A stretch of DNA of 64,000 nucleotides, taken from NCBI RefSeq assembly GCF_031679605.1, contig NZ_CP117522.1:9610001-9674000 (forward strand), given 5' to 3'. Source of the stretch: Streptomyces luomodiensis (GTDB lineage Bacteria; Actinomycetota; Actinomycetes; Streptomycetales; Streptomycetaceae). Shown here piece by piece: positions 10,218 through 28,900 of the stretch. Under the pieces are notes generated by a model. It ran no database searches, was not told the DNA's origin, and saw only the letters and a list, made by a program, of their open reading frames with translations. The position numbers and the translations under genes were made by a program. Positions within the stretch are counted from its first letter, which is position 1. Each line of letters begins with the position of its first letter.

Positions 10218-10230
10218 ATTGGCTACCAAT
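10218..10230. promoter_or_regulatory. Inverted-repeat operator, site 2 (upstream of dioxygenase operon)
   Basis: ATTGGCTACCAAT is the exact reverse complement of the site at 21856. It lies 161 bases upstream of the dioxygenase start, within the 557-base divergent promoter region 9834-10390 that holds no other recognisable gene. The GntR protein encoded at 14871, in the same operon, is the simplest candidate binder. Confidence 0.65.
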
Positions 10231-10390
10231 CGCGTCGGTGATTGCGCTGGAGATCGCCATGCCAGATCCCACCGGATGGGACGGCTCCGACGAGGCGCCA
10301 GGGGCCGGTGCGCCGTGATCCCCGTCCGTTCAGCGTCGTCGACTGATGTCCGTCCCCACCCCACCAACCCTTACCGAGAGGACGAAACCG

Positions 10391-11371: not shown

Positions 11372-11377
11372 ATCCGC

Positions 11378-11403
11378 AAGACCGGCCGTAAAGACCGGCC
11401 GTA
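11378..11403 (+). repeat. Two perfect tandem 13-bp repeats
   Basis: AAGACCGGCCGTA occurs twice without a gap (11378-11390, 11391-11403) between the dioxygenase stop and the RidA gene. Each unit contains the palindrome CCGG. It may be replication slippage or an mRNA processing/structure element. Confidence 0.6.
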
Positions 11404-11435
11404 GACGCCCGCACCCATCCGGAAAGGATCCGTCC

Positions 11436-11825: not shown

Positions 11826-11831
11826 ACCAAC

Positions 11832-14195: not shown

Positions 14196-14797
14196 CCGCC
14201 ACCCGGACAGCCACCCTCACCTCAGCCACCGTTCACGAGGCCGCCGGGCGGATCGGGGCGCTGCCGTCGGCGATCAAGCCCGTGCATCCCGCGATGCACG
14301 TCGAGGGACCGGCCTTCCCGGTGCGGATGCCGGCAGGCGACAACCTCTGGTTGCACCGCGCGGTCTACGCGGCGAGCCCGGGGGAGATCCTCGTCATCGA
14401 TTGCGGCGGGGGGTTCGAGCACGGCTACTTCGGAGAGGTGCTCGCCGAGGCGGCCCTCGCGCGTGGCCTCGCCGGCCTGGTCATCCATGGGGGAGTGCGC
14501 GACGCGCGTCGTCTCGGAGAGATCGGCTGGCCGGTGTTCGCCGAGCGGGTCTGCATCCGCGGCACCGGCAAGGATCCGCACGGCGACGGGGAACTGGGTG
14601 AACCGATCACCATCGGGGACGTGGAGATCCGTCGCGGCGACCTCGTCGTCGCCGATACCGACGGCGTCGTCTGCGTCCCCGCCGACCGTGCCGAGGAGGT
14701 CCGAGCCGCCTCGGCTGCCCGTGACGAAGCCGAACACGGCTACATCAGTCGACTCCGAGCCGGAGAGAGCACCCTTGCGGTCTATGGGCTGCGATGA
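14192..14797 (+). CDS. RraA-like / aldolase family protein, copy 3
   Basis: A 201-residue RraA-fold protein, the shortest and most divergent of the set. It keeps GLAGLVIHGGVRDARRLGEIG, with Arg-Asp present and His-Gly where the other copies have Asp-Gly. VEIRRGDLVVADTDGVVCVP is the typical C-terminal barrel segment. The N-terminus lacks the usual SDAL segment and instead reads AIKPVHPAMHVEGPA. It overlaps copy 2 by ATGA. The missing N-terminal motif suggests a specialised member. Confidence 0.8.
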   Translation: MTATRTATLTSATVHEAAGRIGALPSAIKPVHPAMHVEGPAFPVRMPAGDNLWLHRAVYAASPGEILVIDCGGGFEHGYFGEVLAEAALARGLAGLVIHGGVRDARRLGEIGWPVFAERVCIRGTGKDPHGDGELGEPITIGDVEIRRGDLVVADTDGVVCVPADRAEEVRAASAARDEAEHGYISRLRAGESTLAVYGLR

Positions 14798-14870
14798 GCA
14801 TGCGGCCGGGCCGCACCGGACCACGCTGTTAGACTCCGAACCGCGGTCAACGGAGGGAGGAGGGCGAGCG

Positions 14871-15563
14871 ATGGCAGGGGACCAGCCCGCGAGCCCGCCC
14901 AGCAAGCGCAGCGTCGCAGCGGTGGTCGACAGGCTGCGCGAACAGATCCTGGACCGCGTTCTCATGCCCGGCGAGCCGATCCGCCAGGAGGAGATGGCCC
15001 GCAGGCTCGGCATCAGCCGAGTCCCGCTGCGCGAGGCGCTGCGGGTCCTCACCACCGAAGGACTGCTCACCCACCGCCCGCACCAGGGCTACTTCGTCGC
15101 ACAGCTCAGCGTCGAGGCCCTGCGCCAGATTCACGCGCTGTTGGAGTTCCTCGAAACCGAACTCATCCGGACCGCCCGCTGGCCGGACGACGAGGAACTG
15201 GCCGAGTTGCGCACGATCAACGCGACCATGGCTCACGCGGCCCGGGTCGGAGACGTCGCGGCTGTCAACCGGCTCAATCGACAGCTGCACAACCGGATCT
15301 TCGCCCTGTCCCCGCAGGAGATCTACCTGAGCGAGGCCGAGCGGTTCTGGACGCTCTCCGAGCCCTACCGACTGCTGCACGTCACCTCCACCGACGCGGC
15401 AATCGCCACGGAGCAGCACGAACAGATCATTGACGCGCTTGCCGCGCGTGACCGCGCACTGTGTCTGCGGGTGCTGAGTGAGCACCGGCGTGAGACGCGG
15501 AACGGCGCGCTCAGCATGCTCAGCCGGATGGAGTCCGGCAGCACGCCTCGCGCGGTCGGCTGA
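14871..15563 (+). CDS. GntR family transcriptional regulator (FCD/FadR-type)
   Basis: A 230-residue regulator with an N-terminal winged HTH (RQEEMARRLGISRVPLREAL, then GLLTHRPHQGYFV) at about residues 15-80 and an all-helical FCD-like ligand domain (LHNRIFALSPQ and later His residues that usually bind a metal and carboxylate). GGAGGGAGGAGG precedes ATG 14871. It closes the ring-cleavage operon. The likely role is repression through the ATTGGTAGCCAAT sites at 9953, 10218, 21856 and 21976, with a pathway acid as inducer; this assignment is inference. Confidence 0.88.
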   Translation: MAGDQPASPPSKRSVAAVVDRLREQILDRVLMPGEPIRQEEMARRLGISRVPLREALRVLTTEGLLTHRPHQGYFVAQLSVEALRQIHALLEFLETELIRTARWPDDEELAELRTINATMAHAARVGDVAAVNRLNRQLHNRIFALSPQEIYLSEAERFWTLSEPYRLLHVTSTDAAIATEQHEQIIDALAARDRALCLRVLSEHRRETRNGALSMLSRMESGSTPRAVG

Positions 15564-15851
15564 CCCGACCGACGGCGGAGCCACGCGCTTCCGCAACCAG
15601 CTGTGTGAGTCCTCATCGCTGTTGCCGAGGTCTCGGGCTGGAGTGGCACCTGTCCCAGCCCGTGCGACTGCGCAATGGCGCGCCGACCTGCACGCCCCCT
15701 TCTGCTTCGGTGCGGTGGGTCTTCGCCGTCGCGCCGTCGACCATCCCTGCCGACTCGGATCCCGTTACTCCAGTCCGTGCACCCCTTCCCCCGCCTGCTG
15801 CACGTCACTCACGGCAAAGAGCCCGTCACCCACCGCAGAGAGAAGGAACAG

Positions 15852-16805
15852 ATGCGCATCGCTTACTGGGCAGGCATTCCACTCGCGCGTCAGCTGATCA
15901 CCGCCAGTCTGCAGTCCGTCGAGGGCGCGGACGTCCTGGTCGTCGACACACTCCCGGCGTTGCTCGACGCGCTGCCCGAGGTGGATGCCCTCGTGCTCTC
16001 CGACTGTCCGGTATCGGAGGCAGTCGAGATAGGCAGGCGACTGCGCTCGCCGGACAACCGAGTGCGGTGGATGCATTTCATCACCGCCGGACGCGAGAAG
16101 TTCCTCAAAGCCGGAATCCCTTCCGGGATTCGCGTGACGGATCCTGACGGGGCCATCGCCCCGACCGTCGCCGAGCACGCCCTCGCACTGCTCTTGGCCC
16201 TGGGGCGGCAGCTGCCGGCTTGCGCCGCATCCACCGGCCGCGGCGAGTGGGACCGCTCGATGGCGGTCCGGGCACGCTCGATCGAGGGCCAGTCATTGCT
16301 GGTGGTTGGGTACGGTCACGTCGGCCGCCAGGTGGCACGCCGCGCTGCTGCGTTCGGCGCACGGATCACCGTCGTCACCCGCACTCCCCGACACGACGAC
16401 GTGGCCAGCGATATCCGACCGCTGTCCGCTCTTGAGGAAGCGCTGTCCACTGCGGACGCGATCGTGGTCACGATCGCGCTCACCGAGCAGACCCGCCATC
16501 TCATAGGCGCCAGGCTGTTCGCCGCTGTCAAGTCCGGAGCCTTGCTGGTCAATGTCGCTCGGGGGGACGTGATCGACCAGTCCGCGCTGGCCGCCGCCCT
16601 GCACGCTGGACGGATCGCCGCCGCGGGACTCGACGTCACCGAACCGGAACCGCTGCCCACTGGTGATCCGTTGTGGGGTGCCCCGAATCTGCTGGTCTCC
16701 GGCCACTTCGCAGGCGCCGGGAGCGCGCCGAGCGTCGAGCGCCTGGCACAGGGCGTAGTGGCCCACGCTGCGAGGTTCGTCGCCAGCTCCGGCTCGGAGG
16801 TCTGA
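15852..16805 (+). CDS. D-2-hydroxyacid dehydrogenase family protein
   Basis: A 317-residue NAD(P)-dependent dehydrogenase. The Rossmann motif is VVGYGHVGRQ, the catalytic Arg lies in LLVNVARGDVID, the Glu in AGLDVTEPEPLP and the His in LLVSGHFAGAG. It probably interconverts a 2-hydroxy and a 2-oxo acid. GAGAGAAGGAACAG precedes ATG 15852. The stop is 3 bases before the next gene, an enolase-superfamily enzyme, so the two form a small operon acting on sugar-acid-like or hydroxyacid substrates. Lower similarity in the N-terminal substrate lobe prevents a specific name. Confidence 0.85.
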   Translation: MRIAYWAGIPLARQLITASLQSVEGADVLVVDTLPALLDALPEVDALVLSDCPVSEAVEIGRRLRSPDNRVRWMHFITAGREKFLKAGIPSGIRVTDPDGAIAPTVAEHALALLLALGRQLPACAASTGRGEWDRSMAVRARSIEGQSLLVVGYGHVGRQVARRAAAFGARITVVTRTPRHDDVASDIRPLSALEEALSTADAIVVTIALTEQTRHLIGARLFAAVKSGALLVNVARGDVIDQSALAAALHAGRIAAAGLDVTEPEPLPTGDPLWGAPNLLVSGHFAGAGSAPSVERLAQGVVAHAARFVASSGSEV

Positions 16806-16808
16806 GAC

Positions 16809-18008
16809 ATGCGTGTGGTGGATGTCCAGGTGCTGGCGGCAGACGGGGGCTACCGGGTCTGTCGCTTCGTGAAGGTGACGACGGATGAGGGCCTGGTGGG
16901 GTGGAGCGAGTACTACGACCAGCTCAGTCAGGTGGATCTCACGTCGCTGATACTCCATCACGGGAGGTCGCTGATCGAGCATCGCATCGATCCGTGTTCG
17001 CCGGGCCTGGTCAGTTCGGCGTTGACCGCTACAACGCGGTTGACGGCCGGCGGAGTGCAGCAGCAGGCGATCGCCGCCCTGGAGAACGCATGCCTCGATA
17101 TTCAGGGCAAGGCGGCAGGCCTGCCCGTGTCCCGTCTGTTCGGCGGGCCGTTCCGGACTCGGATACCCGTCTACTGGACACACTGCGGCAGTCTGCGCGT
17201 GTGGCACGCGGCGTTCTTCGAGCGCGAGTTGGGCATGGCACCGGTACGGTCGCTGGAGGACCTGACCAGCTTGGGCCAACAAGCTCGGCGTCTGGGGCTG
17301 CGAGCGGTCAAGACGAACCCGGTCAGCTTCCGACCGGATGCGAAAGGGTGGAACGGTGGGTTCCGTATCGGTCCGAGGATGTTCGACCGCCGAGGCGACG
17401 ACTCGCTCATCGCCGACATCGAGGACCAGCTGGCCGCACTACGGGCCGGGCTCGGGCCGGACGCGGACCTGATGCTGGATGTGAGCTTCAGCCAGCGCAC
17501 CGAGGGCGCCGTGCGGTTGGTCCGATCTCTGGAGGGACACGGACTGCGGTGGCTGGAGCTGGACATCCCCGATCCGGAGGCGCTGGCGTTCGTCCGCCGC
17601 TCGAGCCGAACTCCTGTGGCCTCTCTGGAGTCGCTCTACGGGCTGAATGCCTACCGCCCGTTCCTACAGCAACGCAGCGCCGATGTCGCGATCGTGGACG
17701 TGCTGTGGAACGGCTTCTGGCAGGCCAACCGGATCGCCACTCTGGCCGACGCCTACGACACCGATGTCGCCCCGCACAACATGGTCGGGGAATTGGGCAA
17801 CCTCATCAGCGCACATTTCTGTGCCGCCATCCCCAACTTTTCGATCATGGAACTGCGGGTCGACGAAGCCCCCTGGACCCGCGACTACGTCACCAGCCCC
17901 ACCGTCTTGGACAACGGCGAACTCATCCTGCCCAGCGGACCCGGATGGGGCAGCGACATCAACGAGGACGCCGTCAAAGACCACCCACCACGCGCTCGAC
18001 CGCGCTGA
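16809..18008 (+). CDS. Mandelate racemase/muconate lactonizing enzyme family protein
   Basis: A 399-residue enolase-superfamily enzyme. The N-terminal capping domain is about residues 1-120. The barrel carries AVKTNP (candidate acid/base Lys), the first metal Asp in LMLDVSFSQ, the second acidic ligand in WLELDIPDPEA, the third in PVASLESLYG, and the likely His base in VAPHNMVGELGNL. Such enzymes abstract an alpha-proton from a carboxylate (racemase, lactoniser or dehydratase). Coupled to the upstream 2-hydroxyacid dehydrogenase, a sugar-acid or hydroxyacid dehydratase is plausible. The C-terminal tail is basic and Pro-rich. Confidence 0.87.
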   Translation: MRVVDVQVLAADGGYRVCRFVKVTTDEGLVGWSEYYDQLSQVDLTSLILHHGRSLIEHRIDPCSPGLVSSALTATTRLTAGGVQQQAIAALENACLDIQGKAAGLPVSRLFGGPFRTRIPVYWTHCGSLRVWHAAFFERELGMAPVRSLEDLTSLGQQARRLGLRAVKTNPVSFRPDAKGWNGGFRIGPRMFDRRGDDSLIADIEDQLAALRAGLGPDADLMLDVSFSQRTEGAVRLVRSLEGHGLRWLELDIPDPEALAFVRRSSRTPVASLESLYGLNAYRPFLQQRSADVAIVDVLWNGFWQANRIATLADAYDTDVAPHNMVGELGNLISAHFCAAIPNFSIMELRVDEAPWTRDYVTSPTVLDNGELILPSGPGWGSDINEDAVKDHPPRARPR

Positions 18009-18075
18009 GATCCCGCACGCCGCCGGCTGAGAGCTGGGTTCACGCGCAGGAACCGACCGGCGTGACAGCCGTCGC

Positions 18076-18106
18076 GGGCACGGATCACAAGTGCGGATCC
18101 GTGCCC
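18076..18106. terminator. Bidirectional terminator hairpin
   Basis: An 11-bp perfect stem, GGGCACGGATC (18076-18086) with its complement at 18096-18106, around a 9-base loop. It lies between the convergent MR/MLE-like gene (stop 18008) and the FAD oxidoreductase (stop at 18218). Confidence 0.7.
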
Positions 18107-18217
18107 ACAGCCGAGGCCGGATACACCGGCACCAGACTCCTGGCCGACGGTGGGATGACGGGCCGCTTCTTCGGGCACACCACCGCGAGTCCGCCGGCGG
18201 AGACGTCGCGGCCAATG

Positions 18218-19462
18218 TCAGATGATCGCGTTCTGGCGGGCGAGTTCGGCACGAACGGCGGCCACATCGTGCGGTATCCCGTCGGCATAGTGCGCGGCCG
18301 CGACGCCGGCGGCATGCCCGGTGGCGAAAGCGGCACCCATGACCCGCACCGAGGCGTACGCCTGGGCGTCGGCGCTGGTGAGGCGTCCGACACCCCAGAC
18401 ATTGTCGGTGTCGGCCGAGCAGATGGCGCCGTAGGGAACGTCGTACCAGCCGCGTCCCGCCAACTCGGTGTAGCGAGTGACGCCAGGACCTGCGTGGTCC
18501 TCGATCGGCCAGCCGCACCGGGCGATCGAGGATGCGGGCAGCTTACGCGTGGTGAGCACGTCGGACGCGGTCAGTGTCTCCCGGCCGATGAGATGCCGGC
18601 TTTCCCGGATACCCATCTGGGGACCGGTCTCGATCAGGTGCGCACCGGACCAGCCGGGAAGGTACGTGCGCAGCGCCGACAGATAATGCCACGCCTGACG
18701 GCGCGCACTGACCTCGTCTCGGCTGAGCGCATCGACGTCCAGCGCGTCGACCTGTTCATCGGCCAACAGCGCAACGACTTCACCGGTGAGCGGCAGATGC
18801 GCCGCGATGCCGGAGTCCCGGGCAAGCCGCACTCCGGCATCACGACGGTACGCGGCCACCGCCGCCCGCAATCCGTCGCGAGACAGATCGGCGTCCTGGG
18901 CGACCCCTCCGAAGCGGCACACCAACGTGCTGGTCTGCCGACGCTCGACCGGCTCCACTCGCACACCGGCACCCGCCGCCGCCAGTACCGCGCCGTCACC
19001 GCTGGCGTCCACGAACGCCGGCGCCGCGACGTTCTCACGACCACCCCGGTGGTACAACTCGACCTCGGTGACACGGCCATCCTCCCGCCGGGCGCCGATG
19101 AGCGTGGTGTGCAGGAGCACATCCACCCCGGCGGCCTCGGTGACCGCGTCACACGCCAGCTTGGTCGCCTCGGCGTCGAGCAGGATGACACGATTCCCCG
19201 AGGAGCTCATGGTCTTTTCCTCGTACGCACCGAGGTCACGTAGCTGCTTCAAGACCTGCTCGCCCGCCCCCGCGACCACGCGTTCCCCGCGCTGGTCGAA
19301 GAAGCCGCAATAGCCCAGCACCGAGCTGTTCGTGGCCGCTCCGCCCAGGAACGGAAACCGCTCGACCAGGAGCACTCGGGCGCCTGTCCGCGCGGCACCG
19401 ACGGCCGCTCCGATACCCCCCGCGCCGCCCCCGACGACAACGACGTCATATGACCTGCTCAT
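18218..19462 (-). CDS. FAD-dependent oxidoreductase
   Basis: A 414-residue flavoprotein that begins with the dinucleotide-binding motif VVVVGGGAGGIGAAVGAARTG followed by VLLVERFPFLGG. It belongs to the FAD_oxidored (PF12831-like) group. The FVDASGDGAVLAAAGA segment and the C-terminal GAAFATGHAAGVAAAHYAD close the FAD site. GGGGTGG precedes ATG 19462. It is divergent from the LysR gene at 19563, so LysR control is likely. It may dehydrogenate a substrate of the neighbouring hydroxyacid/enolase-type pathway. Substrate unknown. Confidence 0.85.
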   Translation of the reverse strand: MSRSYDVVVVGGGAGGIGAAVGAARTGARVLLVERFPFLGGAATNSSVLGYCGFFDQRGERVVAGAGEQVLKQLRDLGAYEEKTMSSSGNRVILLDAEATKLACDAVTEAAGVDVLLHTTLIGARREDGRVTEVELYHRGGRENVAAPAFVDASGDGAVLAAAGAGVRVEPVERRQTSTLVCRFGGVAQDADLSRDGLRAAVAAYRRDAGVRLARDSGIAAHLPLTGEVVALLADEQVDALDVDALSRDEVSARRQAWHYLSALRTYLPGWSGAHLIETGPQMGIRESRHLIGRETLTASDVLTTRKLPASSIARCGWPIEDHAGPGVTRYTELAGRGWYDVPYGAICSADTDNVWGVGRLTSADAQAYASVRVMGAAFATGHAAGVAAAHYADGIPHDVAAVRAELARQNAII

Positions 19463-19562
19463 CGACCACCCCTTTCTTGACCTGCGGCCAGTACACGATG
19501 TGCGGGGCGGGCGACGCCAATATCATTCGAACATCAGGCTCATAACGCAAAGGTATGGCTTC

Positions 19563-20447
19563 ATGGAGCTACGACAGCTGCGCTACTTCGTCGCGATTTT
19601 CGAACATCGCTCGGTCTCCCGCGCGGCTGAACACCTGCGGATCTCGCAGCCTGCGCTCACCCGCCAGCTCCGTCAGCTCGAGCGTCACGTGAACACGCCC
19701 CTGTTCGAACGCGGGCCCACCGGGGTCAGCCCCACATCGGCGGCGGTAGCTCTGCACGAGCATGCGAGGCTTCTGCTCCGGCTGGCTGACGCCACTGGCG
19801 AGGTCGCCCGCTCGGCCGGCCCGGCCAAGGAGATCGTGCGTGTCGGTCTGCCGCCCGGTACGCCCTCGGCGTGGCTGGACCAGGTACTTGACGCGCTGCG
19901 CAGCCACGCTCCCGGTGCGGCGATCCAGTTCACCGACGCCAGCAGTACCGACCAGGTACGGCTGCTGCGTGAAGGCCTTCTCGACATAGCCCTCGTCCAC
20001 CAGCGACCAGCGACTCGGTGCACGGCTCGGTTGCTCTACGAACAGCCGGCCGGGATCGCGGTGCGCCCCGGCCACCCGTTGGCCCGCCGTCGCCGCTGTC
20101 ACCTGGCCGAGCTCGACGGGCTGCGGATTCTCGCCCACAGCCGGGACCAAACCACCGCCGAACACGACCGTGTCCTTACCGTCGCGGAATCGCTTGACGT
20201 GCGCCCCGATTGGGTCTTCGCGTGGTTCATCGAGAACGCGCTCGCCTGCGCCACCGCCAGCGACGCCGATGCCGCGTTGCTCACCCGCCCCAGTGCCCAG
20301 CGGCTGTTGCCCGGTTGGCGCTGGCTACCGCTCACCGATCCCGGCTTCGCCTTGCCGACCTGGCTCGCCAGGCAACCGCGGGCCCGCGCGATCGTGGAGA
20401 GGGTGGCCGAGGTGGTCACGGCGACGGCCGCCGACCCGACCGCATGA
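19563..20447 (+). CDS. LysR family transcriptional regulator
   Basis: A 294-residue LTTR with the N-terminal HTH MELRQLRYFVAIFEHRSVSRAAEHLRI-SQPALTRQLRQLE and a periplasmic-binding-like effector domain from about residue 90. The 100-base gap to the divergent FAD oxidoreductase should contain its operator; I see AT-rich sequence around 19521-19550 but no convincing dyad. It is most likely the activator of the oxidoreductase. It lacks the ATTGGTAGCCAAT element in its own promoter. Confidence 0.9.
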   Translation: MELRQLRYFVAIFEHRSVSRAAEHLRISQPALTRQLRQLERHVNTPLFERGPTGVSPTSAAVALHEHARLLLRLADATGEVARSAGPAKEIVRVGLPPGTPSAWLDQVLDALRSHAPGAAIQFTDASSTDQVRLLREGLLDIALVHQRPATRCTARLLYEQPAGIAVRPGHPLARRRRCHLAELDGLRILAHSRDQTTAEHDRVLTVAESLDVRPDWVFAWFIENALACATASDADAALLTRPSAQRLLPGWRWLPLTDPGFALPTWLARQPRARAIVERVAEVVTATAADPTA

Positions 20448-20472
20448 ACCAAGCCGCCGACCCGACCGCATG
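20427..20472 (+). repeat. 20-bp direct repeat across the LysR stop codon
   Basis: The 20 bases GCCGCCGACCCGACCGCATG occur at 20427-20446 and again at 20453-20472, offset by 26 bases, with the first copy containing the start of the stop region. It looks like a small slippage duplication with no obvious function. Confidence 0.6.
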
Positions 20473-20668
20473 CACCACAGCGTCTCGGCCACTGTCGTCG
20501 TCGACTCGGTGCCGCGCTGGAGGTGCCCGGTCACGCTCGTGCCTTCCCAAGACCACCCCGCCGTGGCTCCCCACTCGAACCGGTGCTCTGCCAACCGTCA
20601 GTGCCGAGCAACGCCATGGTGTGTTCCTCTTGAGCAAGCGGTCGGAATGTTTCGCTGACGTGCCGGCA

Positions 20669-21772
20669 TCAGTCAGGCATGGTGAGGAGCGGCTTGATCA
20701 CCTCGCCGCGAGCCGACGCTTCGAGGGCATCCTCGACGCGCTCCAGCGGGAAGGACTCAATGAGCCGGTCGAAGGGAAACCGGCCCTGTGCGTACAGGTC
20801 CATCAGGGCGCCGATGAGTTCCAGGCTCCGGCCTCCGCCGCCGAGGACGCCTACGACCGACTTACCACGCAGCATGCTCCCGTGGTCGAGGCTCAGTTCG
20901 GCGCCGGCCGACGTTCCGCCGACGAGCACGCACGTGCCGAGCATGCCGACCGAGTCGGCCGCTTGCCGCGCGCCCGAGACGGTGCCGGTGCAGTCCACCG
21001 CGTGGTCCGCGGGACCGTCGCATATGTCGTGGATTGCGCGTACCGGGTCTTCTTGCGTCGTGTTCACGACGTGGGTGGCGCCGAGCTGCTTGGCCAGTGC
21101 CAGTCGCGACGCGTAGCGGTCGACAGCCACGATCCTGGTGGCTGCCGTGCTGACGCAGGCCATGATCGCTGATAGACCGACGGCGCCGACTCCGTAGACA
21201 GCGACCGACGCACCGGGCGACGGCCGGACGGTGTGGAAGACCGCTCCCGCTCCGGTGGCCAGACCACACGCGAGAGGACCCATGAGCCCAACGGGGAGCC
21301 CGTCGGGGATGGGTACCAGCGACGACGCGTAGGTCACCGAGTGGGTGGCGAACGACGACTGACCGAAGAAGTGGCTCGACAGCCGCTCGCCGGTGAGTTC
21401 ACGCAAGGCCGACGAGCCGTCTTGCCGACCGCCGCTCGACGCGAGCGCGAAGACCGACTGGCAGTATCTGTGCTCTCCTGCCCTGCAGTGTCGGCACCGT
21501 CCGCACCATGGCCAGCCGATGACGACGGCCTGGCCCTCCCGTACCTCGGACACGCCGTCGCCGACAGCGACGACGGTGCCGGCGCCCTCATGCCCGAGCA
21601 CTCCGGGCAGCGGAAACGGCAGGTTTCCGTCTCGTGTGGCGGCGTCCGTGTGGCAGATGCCACTGGCCGCGATCCTGACCAGCACCTCCCCGGGCCCGGG
21701 TTCATCAATCTCAACGTCCCGGACGTCGAACCGGCCGTGCAGCCTGTCCACGACCGCCGCGCTGACCCGCAT
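20669..21772 (-). CDS. Zinc-dependent alcohol dehydrogenase (aryl-alcohol dehydrogenase-like)
   Basis: A 367-residue medium-chain dehydrogenase. Catalytic zinc ligands are in SGICHTDAATRDG and LGHEGAG. The structural zinc lobe is CGRCRHCRAGEHRYC, with four Cys. The NAD site is AVYGVGAVGLSAIMA. Overall it resembles benzyl/aryl-alcohol dehydrogenases of the class III-like branch. AGGGGAG lies 6 bases before ATG 21772. Two ATTGG-type operators lie 84-96 and about 204-216 bases upstream, tying the gene to the dioxygenase regulon 10 kb away. It probably oxidises an aromatic alcohol to feed that pathway; specificity is inferred. Confidence 0.88.
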   Translation of the reverse strand: MRVSAAVVDRLHGRFDVRDVEIDEPGPGEVLVRIAASGICHTDAATRDGNLPFPLPGVLGHEGAGTVVAVGDGVSEVREGQAVVIGWPWCGRCRHCRAGEHRYCQSVFALASSGGRQDGSSALRELTGERLSSHFFGQSSFATHSVTYASSLVPIPDGLPVGLMGPLACGLATGAGAVFHTVRPSPGASVAVYGVGAVGLSAIMACVSTAATRIVAVDRYASRLALAKQLGATHVVNTTQEDPVRAIHDICDGPADHAVDCTGTVSGARQAADSVGMLGTCVLVGGTSAGAELSLDHGSMLRGKSVVGVLGGGGRSLELIGALMDLYAQGRFPFDRLIESFPLERVEDALEASARGEVIKPLLTMPD

Positions 21773-21855
21773 GAACTACTCCCCTCGCTGTGGCCTCTCG
21801 GAGGAACCCTCGCCACGAAGTCAGAGCCATGGCAGGAGGATCAATGGGAGACGTT

Positions 21856-21868
21856 ATTGGTAGCCAAT
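21856..21868. promoter_or_regulatory. Inverted-repeat operator, site 3 (upstream of alcohol dehydrogenase)
   Basis: ATTGGTAGCCAAT is a perfect ATTGG/CCAAT inverted repeat with centre TAG, 84 bases upstream of the alcohol dehydrogenase start. It is identical, in reverse complement, to the site at 10218. Confidence 0.65.
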
Positions 21869-21975
21869 CCATATGGCAAGGGTCACGGTATCTATGTGAT
21901 TTCCGGTCCTCTGTGGGCGGCAAGTCTGGATGGAGACGCACCAGAAGGCCATCGAGGGCATCCGACATCCGTGGA

Positions 21976-21988
21976 CTTGGCTACCAAT
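21976..21988. promoter_or_regulatory. Inverted-repeat operator, site 4
   Basis: CTTGGCTACCAAT matches site 2 at 12 of 13 bases and is spaced 120 bases from site 3, about 11 helical turns. Paired sites suggest looping. The surrounding 21773-22285 region (513 bases) holds no gene I can support. Confidence 0.5.
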
Positions 21989-22285
21989 CCTGATGGCCGA
22001 CTCGTGTCTGCCGCGCCGGCTGCTCGCGCGGAGTGCCGCGCTGCTCATGGGGGAAGGTCGGCTGCCGGACGCTGACCGGATCGAGTGTGAGCGGCTGGCG
22101 GAGGGCAAGAACTCGAGTCCGCACTTCGGGTACGGCGCTTCGTACCGCGGGCAGGGGGGGCCGGCCGCGGCCGATTGCGTCGCGCAGTACGCGTGCAAGC
22201 GGCCACTGCCGGCCTACCGGGCCCGACGGACAGAGGTCAGGTCCCCGTTTGCGACCGGGTCGTGTAGGCGGCGCCCGGACGACGA

Positions 22286-22774
22286 TCAGCCGTTCTCGCG
22301 TCGGTCCAGCGTGCTGCCCACCACCTTGGGATTCCCCTGCGTCCAGGTGCCGGTGACCCGTCGTCGGGCGATCCGCCAGCCTTCGGTCGTGCGCGTGAGC
22401 CGGTCCTCGTACCTGCCCCCGATGAGGAACTGGTCGCCGCCTTCGGTGTTCGCGCGGACGTGCTGGGCCAGGAAGTAGGCCGTCGCTTCGGCGGTATCAC
22501 CGTCGATGACGGTCTCGATGTTGGTGACCAGGTGCTGTGTGGTGTCCAGCGGCGGCAGGAACGCCTTGTAGTCGACGAGCATCCTGTCCAGTCCGACGGC
22601 CTGGCCGGTGGCGAAGTCGCCCACGGCCTCGGGGATGAAGCAGGTGGCCAGCAGGTCCCAGTCGCGGGTGTCCATCGCGCGGGCGAGCCGGTGCAGAACC
22701 TGGGCGATCTGGATCTGGTCGTGGTCCGGGCCGGTCGGCGCGTCCGCGGGAGTGGGGGTGGGGGTGGGGGACAT
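22286..22774 (-). CDS. NTF2/SnoaL-like protein
   Basis: A 162-residue SnoaL_4-type alpha+beta barrel protein. QIAQVLHRLARAMDTRDWDLLATCF is the typical first helix-turn-helix pair, followed by a strand-rich half (HLVTNIETVIDGDTAEATAYF, GGRYEDRLTRTTEGWRIARR). These folds act as small hydrolases, dehydratases or cyclases. I chose ATG 22774, since ATG 22780 is too close to AGGA. It lies 37 bases after the exporter gene on the same strand, so it shares that operon and probably TetR control. The N-terminal Pro-Thr repeats are low complexity. Confidence 0.8.
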   Translation of the reverse strand: MSPTPTPTPADAPTGPDHDQIQIAQVLHRLARAMDTRDWDLLATCFIPEAVGDFATGQAVGLDRMLVDYKAFLPPLDTTQHLVTNIETVIDGDTAEATAYFLAQHVRANTEGGDQFLIGGRYEDRLTRTTEGWRIARRRVTGTWTQGNPKVVGSTLDRRENG

Positions 22775-22811
22775 GTGCATCGTCCTGTCTGTGTCGTCTT
22801 GTTCGTCTGGT

Positions 22812-24287
22812 TCAGGTGTTGGGCTGCGGGGCGGGTGGCCGCTTGTGGCGGTAGAGCAGGGCGGTGAGGAATGCTCCCGCGGTGTAGGTGCCGGCGCCCC
22901 ACCAGTAGGCGACGGCATAGCCGTGGGTGGCGGCCTGTGCGGTGGCGGTCGGCGAGGTGCCGTGTGCGGCGAGGTAGTGGTCGGTTGCCGCGGTGGCCAG
23001 GGTGTTGAGCAGGGCGGTGCCGATCGAGCCGCCGATCTGCTGGCTGGTGTTGACCACGGCGGAGGCGACGCCGACGGTTCCGGGATCGACGCCCGAGGTG
23101 CCGGCCTGGAAGGACGAGGTGATGACGTTGCCGATGCCGAAGCCGATGAGCAGCAGGGCGGGCAGGACGCCGGTGGTGTAGGTGCTGTCCGGCTCCAGGC
23201 CGGTGAGCAGGACCATGCCGATGGCGCCCAGCACCATGCCGGTGGGCACGACCCTCCGGTGCCCGAGACGGGGCAGGAAGACGTTGGTCGCCAGCTGGGA
23301 GCCGATGATGAGCAGGACGACCATGGGCAGGAAGGCCAGCCCGGTCCGTATCGGCGAGTAGTGGAGGGAGTTCTGCAGGTAGTAGTTGACGAAGAGCAGC
23401 ACACCGAACATGCCGACGCTTGCCAGCAGGATGCCGCTGTAGCCGGCCGCGCGGTCGCGGTCGAGCAGGACGCCCAGTGGCAGCAGGGGGTGCGCTGCGC
23501 GCCGCTGCCAGGCGGCGAAGGCCACCAGTAGCAGCGCCGAGGCGGCGAGTGGTGCCCAGCTCAGCGGCGAGGTCCATCCGTCGGTCTCGGCCTCGGAGAA
23601 GCCGAGGACCAGGGCGAACAGCGCGGCGGAGACCAGCACCGCGCCGGGAATGTCGAGCGCCGGACGGGGTCCCTGACGCGGGGTGCGGCCGATGGACACG
23701 GTGGCCGCGGCCGCGGCCACCACGGCGATGAACACGTTGATGTAGAGCGTCCAGCGCCAGTTCAGGCCCTCGGTCAGAAATCCGCCGAGCAGCACGCCGA
23801 TCGCGCTGCCGGCGCCCGCGGCGGCACTGAACACGCCGAAGGCGCGGGCGCGTTCCTTCGGCGCGGTGAACGTTGTGGCCAGGACGGCCAGCGCCGTGGG
23901 TGCCAGCAGCGCGCCCGCCGCACCCTGGAGCACGCGGGCGGTCACCAGCATGCCGAATCCGTCGGCCGCACCGCCCAGTGCGGACGCGGCGGCGAAGCCC
24001 ACCAGGCCCGCGAGGAACGCGCGCTTGCGGCCGATCATGTCCGACACCCGGCCGCCGAGCAGCAGCAGACCGCCGAAGGCCAGCGAGTAGCCGGTGACGA
24101 TCCACTGGCGGTCGCCGTCGGAGAAGCCCAGGTCTGTCTGGGCCGAGGGGAGCGCGATGTTCACCACCGTGCCGTCCAGGACCACCATGAGCTGGGCCAG
24201 TACCACCGCGCCGAGCACCCACCAACGCCGCGCGGACGTGCCGTCGCCGGGCCGGGGCGGCGCTCCGCTTCGAAGTGCAGTTTCCAT
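22812..24287 (-). CDS. MFS exporter, DHA2 (EmrB/QacA) family
   Basis: A 491-residue drug:H+ antiporter-type protein with about 14 predicted helices. Hallmarks are motif D/A near the N-terminus (LAQLMVVLDGTVVNIALPSAQ, GGRVSDMIGRKRAFLAG) and motif C (VFSAAAGAGSAIGVLLGGFL). The frame is open further upstream, but the operator and the TetR gene occupy that DNA; ATG 24287 or 24299 are the credible starts. It is divergent from the TetR gene at 24384 and its promoter contains a 40-bp dyad, the standard arrangement of a ligand-induced efflux pump. Substrate unknown. Confidence 0.9.
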   Translation of the reverse strand: METALRSGAPPRPGDGTSARRWWVLGAVVLAQLMVVLDGTVVNIALPSAQTDLGFSDGDRQWIVTGYSLAFGGLLLLGGRVSDMIGRKRAFLAGLVGFAAASALGGAADGFGMLVTARVLQGAAGALLAPTALAVLATTFTAPKERARAFGVFSAAAGAGSAIGVLLGGFLTEGLNWRWTLYINVFIAVVAAAAATVSIGRTPRQGPRPALDIPGAVLVSAALFALVLGFSEAETDGWTSPLSWAPLAASALLLVAFAAWQRRAAHPLLPLGVLLDRDRAAGYSGILLASVGMFGVLLFVNYYLQNSLHYSPIRTGLAFLPMVVLLIIGSQLATNVFLPRLGHRRVVPTGMVLGAIGMVLLTGLEPDSTYTTGVLPALLLIGFGIGNVITSSFQAGTSGVDPGTVGVASAVVNTSQQIGGSIGTALLNTLATAATDHYLAAHGTSPTATAQAATHGYAVAYWWGAGTYTAGAFLTALLYRHKRPPAPQPNT

Positions 24288-24307
24288 GGACGTCACCATA
24301 AACGAAA

Positions 24308-24347
24308 CCAGCCAGTTCCGGAAACGCTTAGTTCCGGAACCGGCTGG
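24308..24347. promoter_or_regulatory. TetR operator: 40-bp dyad between exporter and regulator
   Basis: CCAGCCAGTTCCGGAA (24308-24323) and TTCCGGAACCGGCTGG (24332-24347) are inverted with one mismatch around an 8-base centre. Each arm contains the palindrome TTCCGGAA, so two dimers could bind. It lies immediately upstream of both divergent genes. Confidence 0.75.
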
Positions 24348-24383
24348 TACGCTGCTGGAGACATCGAAGGGAGTGCGTCGCGC

Positions 24384-25058
24384 ATGTCTGGAACAGCAGC
24401 CGCCATAAGCGGTGCCGGCGGGGCCGTGCCGGAGCGTCCCGCCCCGCGGCTCGGGCGCAAGCGGGACCACACCCGTGACGCGGAAATCCTCAAGGCCACG
24501 CTCGACGTCCTCGCCGAGACCGGGTACGAGGCCATGTCGATCGACATGGTCGCCACCCGCGCCAAGGCGGGGAAGGCCACGATCTACCGGCGGTGGGACA
24601 CCAAAGGGCACCTTGTACTCGATGCCATCTCCTCTTTGAAGGACACCGCGCTGTCCCCCGACCGGCTGCCGGACACCGGCTCACTGCGCGGCGACATGAT
24701 CGCGATGATCAACCCGCGCTGGCTCGGCGAGAGCGAGCAGCGCATCAAGATCCAGTCGGGTCTGATGTCCTTGCTGTACCGCGCTCCCGAACTCGCCGCG
24801 GCCGTCGACGCCGCGATCGTCGAGCCATCCGCCGCCGCCTACCGGCAGCTCATGGCGCGCGCCGTCGAACGCGGCGAAATCCCCGCCAGCACGGACATCG
24901 ACACGCTCGCGCTGATCATCCCGTCCATGAGCGCGTACCGCGTGATGTTCATGCGCGGATGCGCGGACCGGACATTCCATGAAGCCCTGGTCGACGAAGT
25001 GATACTGCCGGCGCTCGGCATCCGCCCCTCACAGACCGTCGCAGATCAGCGGTTCTGA
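24384..25058 (+). CDS. TetR family transcriptional regulator (exporter repressor)
   Basis: A 224-residue TetR-type protein. The HTH is at about residues 32-78 (ILKATLDVLAETGYEAMSID, KAGKATIYRRWDTKGHLVLDA), and a C-terminal ligand-binding core of the TetR_C_16-like type follows. GAAGGGAG precedes ATG 24384. It is divergent from the DHA2 exporter with the 40-bp dyad between them, so it almost certainly represses the exporter/NTF2 operon and itself. Confidence 0.9.
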   Translation: MSGTAAAISGAGGAVPERPAPRLGRKRDHTRDAEILKATLDVLAETGYEAMSIDMVATRAKAGKATIYRRWDTKGHLVLDAISSLKDTALSPDRLPDTGSLRGDMIAMINPRWLGESEQRIKIQSGLMSLLYRAPELAAAVDAAIVEPSAAAYRQLMARAVERGEIPASTDIDTLALIIPSMSAYRVMFMRGCADRTFHEALVDEVILPALGIRPSQTVADQRF

Positions 25059-25193
25059 CATACAGCACGATTCCGTGAAAGCCACGTCGATCGAGTACCG
25101 AGGGCCAGTTCGACGGCCTGTGACGTCGCAGTCCAGTCCGGCTGCTCCGTGCTCACTCGGCGTTCCCCGCCTTCGTAATGTCTCCATGGCCGT

Positions 25194-25350
25194 CCGACGT
25201 ATCCCGCCACCGACGCGCTCTGCCAGCTCGCGAGCCGCCTGGAGGTGAACGTCCTGGGCACCAGCCCCGGCTACCTGGCGGCCTCCCGCACGGCCGGTGT
25301 GCGGCTCGCCGACCACCACCCGGCCTCGCTCGAGCGCCTGGGGGCCGGGT
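25194..25350 (+). pseudogene. Internal fragment of an acetoacetyl-CoA synthetase-like gene
   Basis: The frame reads PTYPATDALCQLASRLEVN then VLGTSPGYLAASRTAGVRLADHH. This matches the middle of acetoacetate-CoA ligases (the FGTSAAYL-type region). There is no start, no adenylation motifs and no continuation, so it is a relic. It abuts a Cas1 relic on the other strand. Confidence 0.55.
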
Positions 25351-25369
25351 GTAACGGCGGCCGCGCCGG

Positions 25370-25510
25370 GGGGGGCACCGGTGCGGCGGCGCGCTCTCGG
25401 TAGCAGTCCTTCACCCGGCGCCCCTCGCGGCCCAGGAGTTCCTGCCGGGTGAGGCCGACAGGGTCCTCGTCGGGAAAGCGCAGCCGGTACATGGCGCATG
25501 CGGCAGCCAG
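25370..25510 (-). pseudogene. Fragment of a type I-E-like Cas1 gene
   Basis: The minus strand reads LAACAMYRLRFPDEDPVGL then TRQELLGREGRRVKDCYRE. This closely follows the Cas1 pattern of an R-x-MY-x-x-RFP start and LRGREG-x-RV near the catalytic region. A stop precedes it and similarity ends after about 40 residues. No repeats or other cas genes are visible in the window. Confidence 0.5.
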
Positions 25511-25742
25511 CTAAGACAACCGTTCCGGCTCTGCGTGGGGTGTGAGCAGGGCGGCTTGTCGCGGTGGCCGCCCGGGGCCAGGGCTGGAAGCTGCTGCGCG
25601 GGTGCCTGCCCCTCGGGCACTCGAATGGGTTATTAAATGCGGCGACTTTCAAGGTAGCACTCTCATAGTGAATGTGAGCGCGGAAACGTGATCAGACGCA
25701 TGGACCAGCGATCTGGTACTGCCGACCGAAGAAGGAGTAATG
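25511..25742. other. Leader region of the RiPP locus
   Basis: Composition shifts from GC-rich debris to markedly AT-richer DNA from about 25620 (GGGTTATTAAATG). A promoter for the precursor gene should lie in 25620-25725; I cannot assign -35/-10 boxes confidently. AAGGAG at 25732-25737 is the precursor ribosome site. Confidence 0.4.
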
Positions 25743-25985
25743 ATGGCCGGGAAGAGCATTTCGGAAGCTTTGGCAGGCTTGACTGCAGAAGACATCAACG
25801 TGGACGAGGAGGGCCGGGTCGAGATCAACAATCCGGAGATTTCTAAGACCCTGGCAGAGGCGGTTTCTGAAGCTCCTGGAAAGGGTGGCCAGACTCCGTC
25901 AAATGCTAGTGCCTGCCAACCCAACGGCTCAAAATGCAGCCCTAATGCCTCGCAGTGCAACCCTCCGAAGCCAATCAAGGCGTGA
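25743..25985 (+). CDS. RiPP precursor peptide with three NX3C heptads
   Basis: An 80-residue peptide. The acidic leader (residues 1-50) contains AEDINVDEEGRVEINNPEI; the core follows a Lys-Gly-Gly-Gln stretch. Core residues 52-72 form three exact heptads ending in Cys58, Cys65 and Cys72: P-S-N-A-S-A-C, Q-P-N-G-S-K-C, S-P-N-A-S-Q-C. Each has Asn four residues before Cys. The tail NPPKPIKA is basic and Pro-rich. There is no aromatic residue in the core and no signal peptide. AAGGAG lies 5 bases before ATG 25743. The adjacent radical SAM gene makes this a thioether-type (sactipeptide/ranthipeptide-like) precursor candidate. I do not recognise a described family. Confidence 0.82.
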   Translation: MAGKSISEALAGLTAEDINVDEEGRVEINNPEISKTLAEAVSEAPGKGGQTPSNASACQPNGSKCSPNASQCNPPKPIKA

Positions 25986-26013
25986 CTCCTCAACGCCAAG
26001 GGGAAGGATCGTG

Positions 26014-27063
26014 GTGAATAGTCGCACTGACGTTGCTACGAGATTCACCGAAGAGCTCGCACTCTCGCTCCGCAACGACAGCCTGCACCTCATCCTGCTG
26101 CCCACAGAGAAGTGCAACTTCAGGTGCACTTACTGTTACGAGGACTTCTCTGTGGGCCGCATGAAAGATTCGATCGTCAAGGGCATCAAGGGCCTGATCG
26201 ACCGACGCCTGGAGGGTTTGCGCTCTCTTAGCATCTCGTGGTTCGGCGGGGAGCCTCTGCTGGCTCTTCCGGTGATCGAAGAGGTCTCCGCCCACGTCAT
26301 CAGAGTTGCCGCGGATCATTCGGACCTGGAGTACGCGGCCGACATGACGACAAACGGCTACCTCCTTGACTCCACAACGATGACCCGTCTGAGCGCGTTG
26401 GGAATCCGTCAATACCAGATTTCCCTCGACGGGCCGCAGAAATTTCATGATCGAACTCGCGTACAGGCTAACGGTTCCGGATCGTTCCATCAAGTATGGG
26501 AAAATCTGCTGGCGATTCGCCAGAGTGCAACGCCGGTCCACGTCATCCTGCGGGTGCATATTACCCCCGCCAACTTGTCGTCAATGCCAGAGTTTCTGAC
26601 GCACATCCAGGACGCGTTCCTCGGAGATGCTCGATTCTCTGTGCTCCTTAAGCCGGTGGAGCGACTCGGCGGACCTAATGACGAGAAGATGAGCGTCATC
26701 GGCGGAGAGGAAGCACCGAAGATCCTCGCCGATCTACAGTCGATGGTGCTTTCTGGTGGAGCAGGCTCCGGCCTGCAGCCCGTTCCGGACGTTTGCTATG
26801 CCGCACGTCCCAATTCCTTGATGATTCGCGCCAATGGCGTCGTCGGGAAGTGTACCGTGGCGCTTACCGATCCCGCCAATGCCATTGGGAGACTCCGGTC
26901 GGACGGCACTGTCGAAATCGACAATGTTCTGCTCCGCCCCTGGTTGCGGGGATGGGAATCCGGTGACTGGAGTACCTTGAGCTGTCCCGCTAACGGACTT
27001 CCGCGTAATCAACCCACGTTGCTGCAGGTCGGTCCCACACGACTTGAGCCGGAGCGGATGTAA
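26014..27063 (+). CDS. Radical SAM peptide maturase with SPASM-like C-terminus
   Basis: A 349-residue radical SAM enzyme. The [4Fe-4S] motif CNFRCTYC (Cys34, 38, 41; CX3CX2C) is followed by WFGGEPLLALP (SAM-binding GGE), MTTNGYLLD and ISLDGPQKFHD. The C-terminal part looks like a SPASM domain (DVCYAARPNSLMIRANGVVGKC, then LSCPANGLP), but I count only three Cys there instead of the usual six or seven. I chose GTG 26014 because AAGGA lies 5 bases upstream; GTG 26011 is adjacent. It lies 28 bases after the precursor gene and 2 bases before the next gene. Expected role: thioether or C-C crosslink formation on the precursor. Lower GC than its neighbours suggests transfer. Confidence 0.88.
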   Translation: MNSRTDVATRFTEELALSLRNDSLHLILLPTEKCNFRCTYCYEDFSVGRMKDSIVKGIKGLIDRRLEGLRSLSISWFGGEPLLALPVIEEVSAHVIRVAADHSDLEYAADMTTNGYLLDSTTMTRLSALGIRQYQISLDGPQKFHDRTRVQANGSGSFHQVWENLLAIRQSATPVHVILRVHITPANLSSMPEFLTHIQDAFLGDARFSVLLKPVERLGGPNDEKMSVIGGEEAPKILADLQSMVLSGGAGSGLQPVPDVCYAARPNSLMIRANGVVGKCTVALTDPANAIGRLRSDGTVEIDNVLLRPWLRGWESGDWSTLSCPANGLPRNQPTLLQVGPTRLEPERM

Positions 27064-27065
27064 AA

Positions 27066-28259
27066 ATGTCCCCCGCTGCTACGTGGCCGGGCTGCTCGCT
27101 CGCCGCAGAATCCCTCATGGACTATGACCGACCATCGCGGCGTGCTCTGGACAAGTGGGCAAACGAGCTGTGCGGTGACCTGAATTCTCTCAACTCCGCA
27201 CAGCACCTTATGGATCAGAGAGAAACAGCGTCAGCATATATGAATCTCGCCGCCCTCGTCGTAGCTCATTCAGGTGACGTCAAAACCGCTGAACGACTGT
27301 GCTGGCTCCAATTGGAGTGGTTAGCTCGGCTCTCCTCCGATTCCGGTGAATCTTTCATCCTGCACAACACTTTGCAGCCATGGATCAATGTGGGGCGGCT
27401 GCGTGCTCTTCAGGGGGATGCGGATGGGGCCCGACGTCACTTTCTTCTGGCCGAGTATATGCGCGATCGCCGAGCTGTGCAGCTAGGTCCGTGCAGTATT
27501 CTGGCTGGCGCATGGCCGCTCATTCTGGCCGCCGAACCTGAGATTCCTGGCGTACTGTGGAATGTTTACGCAATCGATCAGGTAAAAGCATATATGCGCT
27601 CTGGAGATCCAGCCCGTGCGCTGGCTGTTATCTCTGGTCTGCGTCGTGTTGCCCCGCCCGCATCGCATCCATTCATCACCGAAGGAGAGATTCTCATCCT
27701 TCTGCGCAGCGGGCGCGCCAAGGAGGCCCTCGACAAGGCAACCAATGTGACCCCCGAAAGACCGTCCAGCGAGATGGCATTTCTGTTGCATCAAGTAGCG
27801 GCCATGGTTGCGTTGGGACATGAGGGGCGTGCGAGACGGCTCGCAATCAGTCTCACGGCGCTTGTTACGCGGACAGACCTGGAGTACGCCACTCCCGGCA
27901 CTTTTCTCCGGCACCTCAAACAACTTGGGCTGCTTCTGGAAAAGGTCAGCGAATTCAATTACGCCCGTGCAATTTATCTCCGAGGGCTGGAAGTATGTGA
28001 CAAACATGAGGATGAGCCGTTGCGTCTGGAGTTCGTAGAAGGAGTCCTGCGCCTGGCGCCGAATGATGCTGCATCAGCCAAGTGGCGTTCTAGACGGGAT
28101 GACCTGCTCGGGCGATCCTTGTACTTTGAAGTACGCCGAAAGAATGGTATAAGAGCAGCGCACGACCATCCATCGATCCGTCATCTGGTAGCGGCCGCTG
28201 AATCGATGAGTGGGTGCAGCTCTGTTTCGAGTAAGGCGTTGAGGAGCAGCCGAGCGTGA
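27066..28259 (+). CDS. Helical-repeat (TPR-like) protein of the RiPP locus
   Basis: A 397-residue soluble, helix-rich protein. Repeated helical pairs such as ETASAYMNLAALVVAHSGDV-KTAERLCWLQLEWLARL, INVGRLRALQGDADGARRHF and FNYARAIYLRGLEVCDKHEDE suggest TPR-like repeats through most of its length. I see no HTH, protease or transporter motif. ATG 27066 lies 2 bases after the maturase stop, so the genes are co-transcribed; ATG 27117 is an alternative start. Composition matches the precursor and maturase. Possible roles are scaffold or chaperone for the modified peptide, or a regulator sensing it. Function unknown. Confidence 0.75.
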   Translation: MSPAATWPGCSLAAESLMDYDRPSRRALDKWANELCGDLNSLNSAQHLMDQRETASAYMNLAALVVAHSGDVKTAERLCWLQLEWLARLSSDSGESFILHNTLQPWINVGRLRALQGDADGARRHFLLAEYMRDRRAVQLGPCSILAGAWPLILAAEPEIPGVLWNVYAIDQVKAYMRSGDPARALAVISGLRRVAPPASHPFITEGEILILLRSGRAKEALDKATNVTPERPSSEMAFLLHQVAAMVALGHEGRARRLAISLTALVTRTDLEYATPGTFLRHLKQLGLLLEKVSEFNYARAIYLRGLEVCDKHEDEPLRLEFVEGVLRLAPNDAASAKWRSRRDDLLGRSLYFEVRRKNGIRAAHDHPSIRHLVAAAESMSGCSSVSSKALRSSRA

Positions 28260-28575
28260 GGTCGGCCTCCCCGGTCGGGAGCCAGTACGACTCGTGATGG
28301 CGGACCCGGCCGGCCAGGTCCGCCAGCGGCGTCCCGGAGTGTTCCGGGAAGATCCGGTTTTGACCTGACGGTGCCCGGTTGACGGGTGTGGAGGGGAGCC
28401 GAGCACGGCACTTGGGGATCATGGAGTTCTCTACGCTTCAAGATCCGCCGCTTCGAGATCCGCAAGGTTGCCGTGCTCGTTGCTTCGTCCTTCCCCAACG
28501 AGGTGCGGCCGGTCGACGCGTGCGTCCCGGTACTGTGTCGCCTACTACCCGACGCGCGGGCCGAGGAAGGGGAGC
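28260..28575. other. Gap between RiPP locus and Trypco2 operon
   Basis: 316 bases in which base composition returns to high GC. Minus-strand frames contain a protein-like HHESYWLPTGEADLTLG stretch (about 28230-28310) that could be a relic, but I cannot name it. The promoter of the Trypco2 gene should lie here. Confidence 0.35.
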
Positions 28576-28884: not shown

Positions 28885-28900
28885 GGGGTGAAGCTGGACG

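Follow-up and report, generated by a model that had tools for sequence, protein, structure and literature searches.

The 64,000-nucleotide stretch of Streptomyces luomodiensis DNA analysed here (the window) probably encodes a compact RiPP operon, comprising a precursor, a thioether synthase of the radical SAM type and an accessory protein resembling TPR proteins, whose product would carry three Asn Cbeta-S-Cys(i+4) thioethers. Judged from the sequences of precursors that adjoin related maturases, the conserved feature of the family is an Asn three or four residues ahead of a Cys, and the exact heptad of the window is one clade's version of it. The features concerned are:

25732..25737 (+): Shine-Dalgarno-like AAGGAG, from direct reading of the sequence, 5 nt upstream of the ATG at 25743
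25743..25985 (+): RiPP precursor gene of 80 aa, from translation and a match to a leader HMM (E 3.6e-10, the window leader being one of the model's seeds)
25788..25859 (+): conserved leader segment, residues 16-39 (EDINVDEEGRVEINNPEISKTLAE), from like leaders in small ORFs adjoining related maturases and from a close-clade alignment
25902..25958 (+): core with three NX3C heptads, Asn54-Cys58, Asn61-Cys65 and Asn68-Cys72, from translation
26011..27063 (+): radical SAM maturase of 350 aa with a GTG start (26014 also possible), from Pfam PF04055 (55.1 bits, cut-off 29.5) and an AlphaFold model
27066..28259 (+): TPR-like alpha-solenoid protein of 397 aa, which the closest clade keeps together with the maturase, model pLDDT 86
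5427..28497 (no strand): segment of about 23 kb missing at the same place in a same-species genome, from genome comparison, its right end holding the RiPP operon

The three genes lie on the same strand, the precursor gene ending 25 bp ahead of the radical SAM gene. An ATG at 25740 is also possible and gives a longer precursor ORF; that at 25743 is the better start because AAGGAG lies 5 nt ahead of it. Translation confirmed what an earlier note on this DNA had described, namely a peptide of 80 aa with an acidic leader, exact Asn/Cys heptads, Pro or Ser ahead of each Asn (Ser, Pro and Pro in turn for Asn54, Asn61 and Asn68), Ser midway (at Asn+2 in all three heptads) and a core devoid of aromatic residues, and the neighbouring radical SAM gene it reported is borne out by the Pfam score given above. 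The C-terminal end of the precursor reads TPSNASACQPNGSKCSPNASQCNPPKPIKA. Shuffling the 30-residue core 300,000 times yielded a triple heptad only twice, and the six-frame translation of the window has one among 127,996 residues. The 2,536,742 residues of the loci examined contain six, all in the window gene or in Planomonospora and including duplicates (the window gene as L001 and L102; the Planomonospora locus as L021 and L113, identical in sequence). A chance repeat or spurious ORF was ruled out by these shuffle statistics together with the orthologous Planomonospora locus. When the window precursor was used to search a protein database it matched nothing except itself; small ORFs are often missing from databases. 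Neither the window peptide nor ten relatives' precursors, picked by hand, reached any Pfam or NCBIfam cut-off.

In the Planomonospora locus, two paralogous precursors adjoin an orthologous maturase, and both carry three NX3C heptads that follow the pattern N-x-S/T-x-C, the midpoint being Ser in five of the six and Thr in the sixth. The N-glycosylation sequon N-x-S/T, present in 3/3 window and 6/6 Planomonospora motifs, was considered and rejected as the meaning of the motif in the family, as the Asn of many relatives is without Ser/Thr at +2.

The wider family was surveyed with an HMM of the leader alone, seeded with 30 regular-expression matches and leaving the core unconstrained, which was run on 3,205 small ORFs from both strands within 1.5 kb of maturases scoring at least 200. 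Matches at E <= 1 were kept; 81 were obtained at E <= 10, and 62 distinct cores at E <= 1, two of them retained although on the strand opposite the maturase, were reduced to 57 once cores more than 75% alike were removed. All 57 of these cores, which were collected at a lenient E limit from loci that are not independent draws and include the window peptide itself, contain Cys (147 in all), and Asn is found at -3 of 63 Cys (shuffle expectation 15, z 14) and at -4 of 39 (expectation 14, z 7.3). Asn at -9 to -5, -2 and -1 stays within z 2, and downstream, at +2 to +4, it is slightly raised (z 2.0-2.8), as repeats would give. Position -2 has no single fixed residue (Gly 30, Ser 21). Combining the two spacings, 95/147 Cys have Asn at -3 or -4 against a mean of 27.3 and a maximum of 41 in 1,000 shuffles, with 56 having only -3, 32 only -4 and seven both. 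At least one such pair is present in 53/57 precursors (mean 22.3, maximum 35 in 2,000 shuffles), leaving 52 Cys and four precursors as exceptions. As controls, opposite-strand ORFs of the same loci gave Asn at -3 or -4 for 88/1,324 Cys and same-strand ORFs without a leader match for 174/1,142, the latter set still including missed precursors; the leader-selected set gave 95/146 in the same comparison. Precursors of the nearest maturases (score at least 450; 16 precursors, 43 Cys) have Asn at -3 of 11 Cys, at -4 of 13 and at either of 24, and those of the remaining maturases (41 precursors, 103 Cys) at -3 of 52, at -4 of 26 and at either of 71.

The strict heptad was accordingly rejected as a rule for the maturase family, given that NX2C is commoner than NX3C and that the triple heptad occurs in the window and Planomonospora only, among the loci examined. 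The earlier note's pairing of the precursor with the maturase, and of Cys with an upstream Asn, was upheld, whereas its exact NX3C heptad did not hold as a rule. The number of repeats varies, as the note had proposed to check, and it is Asn before Cys, not strict NX3C, that is kept. Maturase homologues without a nearby Cys-heptad peptide, which the note had named as evidence against its reading, do occur and count against the strict heptad; the wider rule of Asn before Cys applies to the majority of loci with a detected precursor but not to every one.

Variation is apparent from one relative to the next. The precursor of Streptomyces G582 (L110) combines two NX2C motifs with one NX3C, and the number of pairs per precursor ranges from one to several (L084, L131, L076). 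In the Nonomuraea and Nannocystis cores, of the NNC-x-GGNC-x-GC type, the -3/-4 rule fails at some Cys and C-X3-N fits equally well. A leader-type precursor was detected at 18/21 distinct loci scoring at least 450, 33/68 at 330-450, 3/16 at 300-330 and 2/11 at 200-300. Several lower-score loci without a leader match show NX2-3C peptides by eye. Of the three undetected at a score of at least 450, L108 and L025 have visible precursors, and the third is L022 (Streptomyces specialis), where neither a leader-type peptide nor a small ORF with NX2-3C was seen within 700 nt of the maturase.

Several loci merit mention for other reasons. Maturase relatives labelled as Micrarchaeota/Marsarchaeota metagenome bins (L087, L090, L097) adjoin NX2-3C small peptides, the core at L097 being NSGCDGANTGCQNSGCDGSNSGC, and these are possible archaeal RiPPs of the same kind, judging by sequence. 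Four different Cys/Asn-rich small ORFs surround a single maturase at L054 (5718-7929), which possibly serves several precursors. Candidate precursors at L077, L082, L135, L138 and L145 start, by eye, with a Sec-type signal peptide and not an acidic/double-glycine leader, which suggests another export route. On Deinococcus plasmids, maturase relatives come after genes annotated as alkane 1-monooxygenase (L147, the relative having eight C-terminal Cys) and MsnO8-family LLM oxidoreductase (L149, also with a lantibiotic dehydratase nearby).

The maturase bears the CX3CX2C motif as Cys35, Cys39 and Cys42, and otherwise only Cys262, Cys281 and Cys325 are conserved across the family. Once maturases scoring under 300 or identical were left out (115 reduced to 105), Cys35/39/42, Cys262 and Cys281 were present in 105/105 and Cys325 in 104/105, with exactly three Cys beyond residue 200 of the trimmed sequence in 70/105. 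CX2CX5CX3C was found in none of the 105 and the looser CX2CX4-7C in ten, which are relatives that score low (301-347) and have eight Cys in the C-terminal part. The family core retains the first SPASM pair (CX13GX4C) and one further Cys, from which we infer a single auxiliary cluster with three protein Cys ligands and an open iron site. The 34 residues ahead of the radical SAM motif are too few for an RRE of the type carried by CteB, SuiB and SkfB (excerpts of PMC6231123), and the maturase is thus without an RRE-sized extension.

Structural and sequence comparisons placed CteB closest among solved structures. The AlphaFold model (pLDDT 85) gave CteB 5wgg as its best Foldseek match (E 1.5e-15), followed by ChlB and anSME, with SkfB at rank 19 and EpeE, TigE and the non-peptide enzymes BlsE and DesII among the other matches. 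By sequence, the best PDB matches were CteB 5wgg/5why, at 50.9 bits versus 17.2 for SkfB, and at 73.2 versus 29.7 in a second comparison. Among the best 25 of 68 NCBIfam models listed, no cut-off was reached and no model named NxxcB appeared; TIGR04463 scored best (146.8 bits, cut-off 525), the PapB model NF047865 scored 105.2 (cut-off 340), the SCIFF model TIGR03974 56.6 (cut-off 425) and the sactipeptide maturase model NF035951 (RumMC) 53.8, CefB and CcpM being among the other top models. TIGR04463 matched 38/38 members of an alignment of the window maturase with 37 of 120 listed relatives (A1), with the best E-value of all models.

Relatives of the maturase amount to 3,826 proteins at E <= 1e-5, many of them distant, among 7,996 candidates scored. 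Those at 66-74% identity include Streptomyces, Streptosporangium, Nonomuraea and Planomonospora; remoter ones are labelled in database records as cyanobacteria, Nannocystis, Brevibacillus, Neobacillus, many Proteobacteria, Bacteroidota and archaeal bins. The gene is accessory, with a match at E <= 1e-40 in 9/392 sampled genomes of the window's genus and in 15/297 of the family of genome G701, several of the latter being low-scoring eight-Cys relatives. Five distant matches, under 60% identity, were found in phage records, and a genome search re-centred on G582 returned no loci beyond those already found.

The window precursor and maturase are, on their sequences, almost certainly a true pair. 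In the proposed pathway the conserved acidic leader (VDEEGRVxIxxPEI) would dock the precursor onto the maturase. The Cys35/39/42 cluster would generate a 5'-deoxyadenosyl radical that abstracts a beta-hydrogen of each Asn; the Asn radical would then be captured by the Cys at i+4, which may be bound to the open iron site of the Cys262/281/325 cluster. The product would contain three Asn(Cbeta)-S-Cys rings that are independent of one another, span N-x-S-x-C and recur every seven residues, and it would be lighter by 6 H (~6.05 Da); the leader would then be cut off by a protease. Three such rings are predicted because of the chemistry of NxxcB, and of CteB and PapB as relatives by fold or sequence, together with the spacing data from the family: NxxcB links Cys23 of NxxcA to the beta carbon of Asn20 (excerpts of PMC8326336, PMC13361665 and PMC11002830), CteB forms a Cys-Thr S-Cgamma link (excerpts of PMC11002830) and PapB, which has the mirrored CX3D spacing, accepts 0-6 intervening residues (excerpts of PMC9413430), making i+3 and i+4 rings plausible within one family. 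That the window peptide carries an Asn-Cys thioether is predicted with good confidence from its sequence and these analogies, attachment at the Asn Cbeta is the likely form of it by the same analogies, and the balance leans slightly towards all three rings being made.

In NxxcA/NxxcB of Streptococcus orisratti and S. porci (Caruso et al. 2019, as reported in excerpts of PMC8326336, PMC13361665 and PMC11002830), an upstream Asn is likewise the acceptor of a Cys thiol through a radical SAM enzyme, and the NX2C spacing of NxxcA is the commonest spacing in the window maturase's family. NxxcA nevertheless has a single i+3 link, whereas the window precursor has three i+4 pairs and no NX2C, and NxxcB is described as a SPASM enzyme (excerpts of PMC9012708) of Rgg-linked loci (excerpts of PMC13361665), in contrast to the one inferred three-Cys site and TPR partner of the window. 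Freyrasin (PapA/PapB) resembles the predicted product in its four-residue spacing and several identical Cbeta thioethers (excerpts of PMC8326336 and PMC9413430), but its acceptor is an Asp after Cys and not an Asn before it; there is no Asp or Glu beyond the first Cys of the window precursor, as CX3D/E would have, and the maturase scores well below the NF047865 cut-off. CteB, of thermocellin/SCIFF, is the best fold and PDB sequence match and has an auxiliary cluster with an open site (excerpts of PMC6231123), yet it possesses an RRE and a two-cluster SPASM domain, as against the short N-terminus, three C-terminal Cys columns and low TIGR03974 score of the window enzyme. TIGR04463 ('rSAM_vs_C_rich'), the best model for the family and by name one for Cys-rich substrates, lies far above the window maturase in its cut-off, and its maturase on a Methylomagnum plasmid is 488 aa long beside the 679-aa CefA, compared with 350 aa here. 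On that plasmid (M. ishizawai, L148), CefA, a precursor with Cys at every fifth position, the TIGR04463 maturase and a radical SAM C-methyltransferase occur together.

The same Asn-Cys pairs could instead be joined from sulfur to the Asn alpha carbon, as sactionines, making the product a sactipeptide. Sactipeptide acceptors include Asn (excerpts of PMC8326336), the fold matches include SkfB, a sactisynthase of the Twitch type whose auxiliary site is open, and the near-equal RumMC and SCIFF scores indicate that HMMs separate sactionine from non-alpha chemistry poorly. We nonetheless consider this unlikely, as the enriched acceptor is one kind of residue whose side chain activates the beta position, just as Asn does in NxxcA and Asp in freyrasin, which are both linked at Cbeta (excerpts of PMC8326336), while the PapB model reaches 105 bits and CteB outscores SkfB in both sequence comparisons. 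Furthermore, apart from ruminococcin C and streptosactin, every sactipeptide forms a hairpin in which the donor Cys are N-terminal and the acceptors C-terminal, according to excerpts of a 2021 review (PMC8326336); the window peptide, in which each presumed Asn acceptor precedes its Cys locally, has no such arrangement, a feature that is not universal in sactipeptides. It is rather improbable that the maturase makes a change other than a crosslink (epimerisation, Cys/Asn oxidation or rearrangement) with Asn and Cys as its recognition site: radical SAM peptide enzymes are chemically diverse and the fold matches include the epimerase EpeE, TigE, BlsE and DesII, but Cys is present in every leader-selected core, Asn is enriched at fixed spacing, and CteB and the PapB, TIGR04463, CefB and CcpM models represent thioether or Cys-rich peptide maturases.

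A thioether from Cys to some other residue, either the Ser at -2 or a downstream Asn in CX3N cores, with the upstream Asn for recognition only, would accommodate the midway Ser of all three window and five of six Planomonospora heptads as well as the Nonomuraea and Nannocystis cores; with no fixed residue at -2 and Asn dominating -3/-4, this seems very unlikely. Least credible is a peptide left unmodified by the maturase, be it a metal-binding or disulfide peptide or a spurious ORF. Three Cys could bind metal and the database search found the precursor alone, but the good ribosome site, the operon spacing, the leader conserved beside orthologous maturases and the two paralogous Planomonospora heptad precursors all argue against it.

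The preferred reading, of Asn Cbeta thioethers, would place the locus among ranthipeptides of the known Asn-Cys thioether kind, by sequence and analogy: a radical SAM maturase adjoins a Cys-containing precursor, and a Cys/acceptor spacing recurs among homologues. The repeat for which the earlier note suggested a new subclass is read here as a variation on a known type, Asn-before-Cys thioethers being already known from the Asn20-Cys23 link of NxxcA (excerpts of PMC8326336). In the searchable literature no description appears to exist of an array of i+4 heptads, of a maturase with one auxiliary cluster and no RRE, or of how widely the family is spread; searches there for radical SAM with TIGR04463, NX3C, NX2C, NxxxC or CX3N, or for a combination of three terms on Cys-Asn thioethers, gave no match, and the excerpts of PMC9062424 describe other radical SAM peptide clusters and contain no NX2-3C repeat. 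Subscription papers could hold such descriptions. The novelty of the family would be lower if NxxcB belonged to it. NX2-3C peptides adjoin family members in many bacterial phyla and some archaeal metagenome bins, as labelled in records, and opinion is evenly poised on whether this amounts to a widespread ranthipeptide subclass whose repeated beta-thioethers, from Asn(i) to Cys(i+3) or Cys(i+4), are installed by a minimal RRE-less enzyme with one auxiliary cluster held by three Cys, identical i+4 rings at heptad spacing being the form made in the clade of the window. If so, the Asn-Cys thioether, known from streptococcal NxxC peptides in the excerpts cited, would be a common modification, made by a family of compact enzymes whose precursors are easy to recognise, and the single auxiliary cluster would allow the role of the open iron site in thioether formation to be tested without a second cluster. 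The heptad peptide, with three near-identical motifs, no aromatic residues and no further Cys, represents a clean test substrate, and NX2C and NX3C family members a natural ring-size series.

Structure matches of the TPR-like protein are weak (LGN TPR at E 1e-4; the quorum sensor NprR at rank 42), as are its TPR Pfam matches, and it has no HTH match; the regulator upstream of the operon is of the TetR type. The gene is also present at Planomonospora L021, G582 (L110) and L108/L005, at 63%, 50% and 28-30% identity, respectively. Linkage to the maturase is further suggested because matches to both fall on contigs of equal size in four more database pairs (85,622; 119,160; 3,259; 2,896). The protein probably binds peptide, as a clade-specific chaperone or as a sensor, a guess that is the weakest step of our proposal. 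C39-peptidase ABC exporters are usual for double-glycine peptides. They were found near the maturase at four of seven loci examined (L042, L065, L084, L048), and none was seen among nine neighbours in a second set or among the three window operon genes, loci and neighbours having been picked by hand.

The operon has a G+C content of 56-58% and a third-position G+C of 0.57-0.68, lower than its flanks (0.86 for the TetR gene, 0.80 for the large ORF at 28901). In the same-species genome G384, which has no maturase match at E <= 1e-40, window positions 1-5426 and 28498 onward adjoin, approximately 97 bp apart and at 96-99% identity in matching pieces; because both flanks lie side by side there, the segment of about 23 kb is extra in the window strain. 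No Rfam model matched in window 20,000-34,000, no tRNAs were found within the window, and promoter-like and terminator-like sites were roughly as frequent in shuffled sequence. A 21-nt inverted repeat (90% complementary) at 26093-26164, around the codons of the maturase CX3CX2C motif, is probably coincidental. The extra segment also carries MFS transporter, LigB-type dioxygenase, 2-hydroxyacid dehydrogenase, enolase-superfamily and alcohol dehydrogenase genes. Starting at its edge, window 28468-37010 encodes a Trypco2-domain ORF (PF19631) followed by two very large ORFs of 1430 and 1260 aa with P-loop-like stretches by eye, which perhaps constitute a conflict system.
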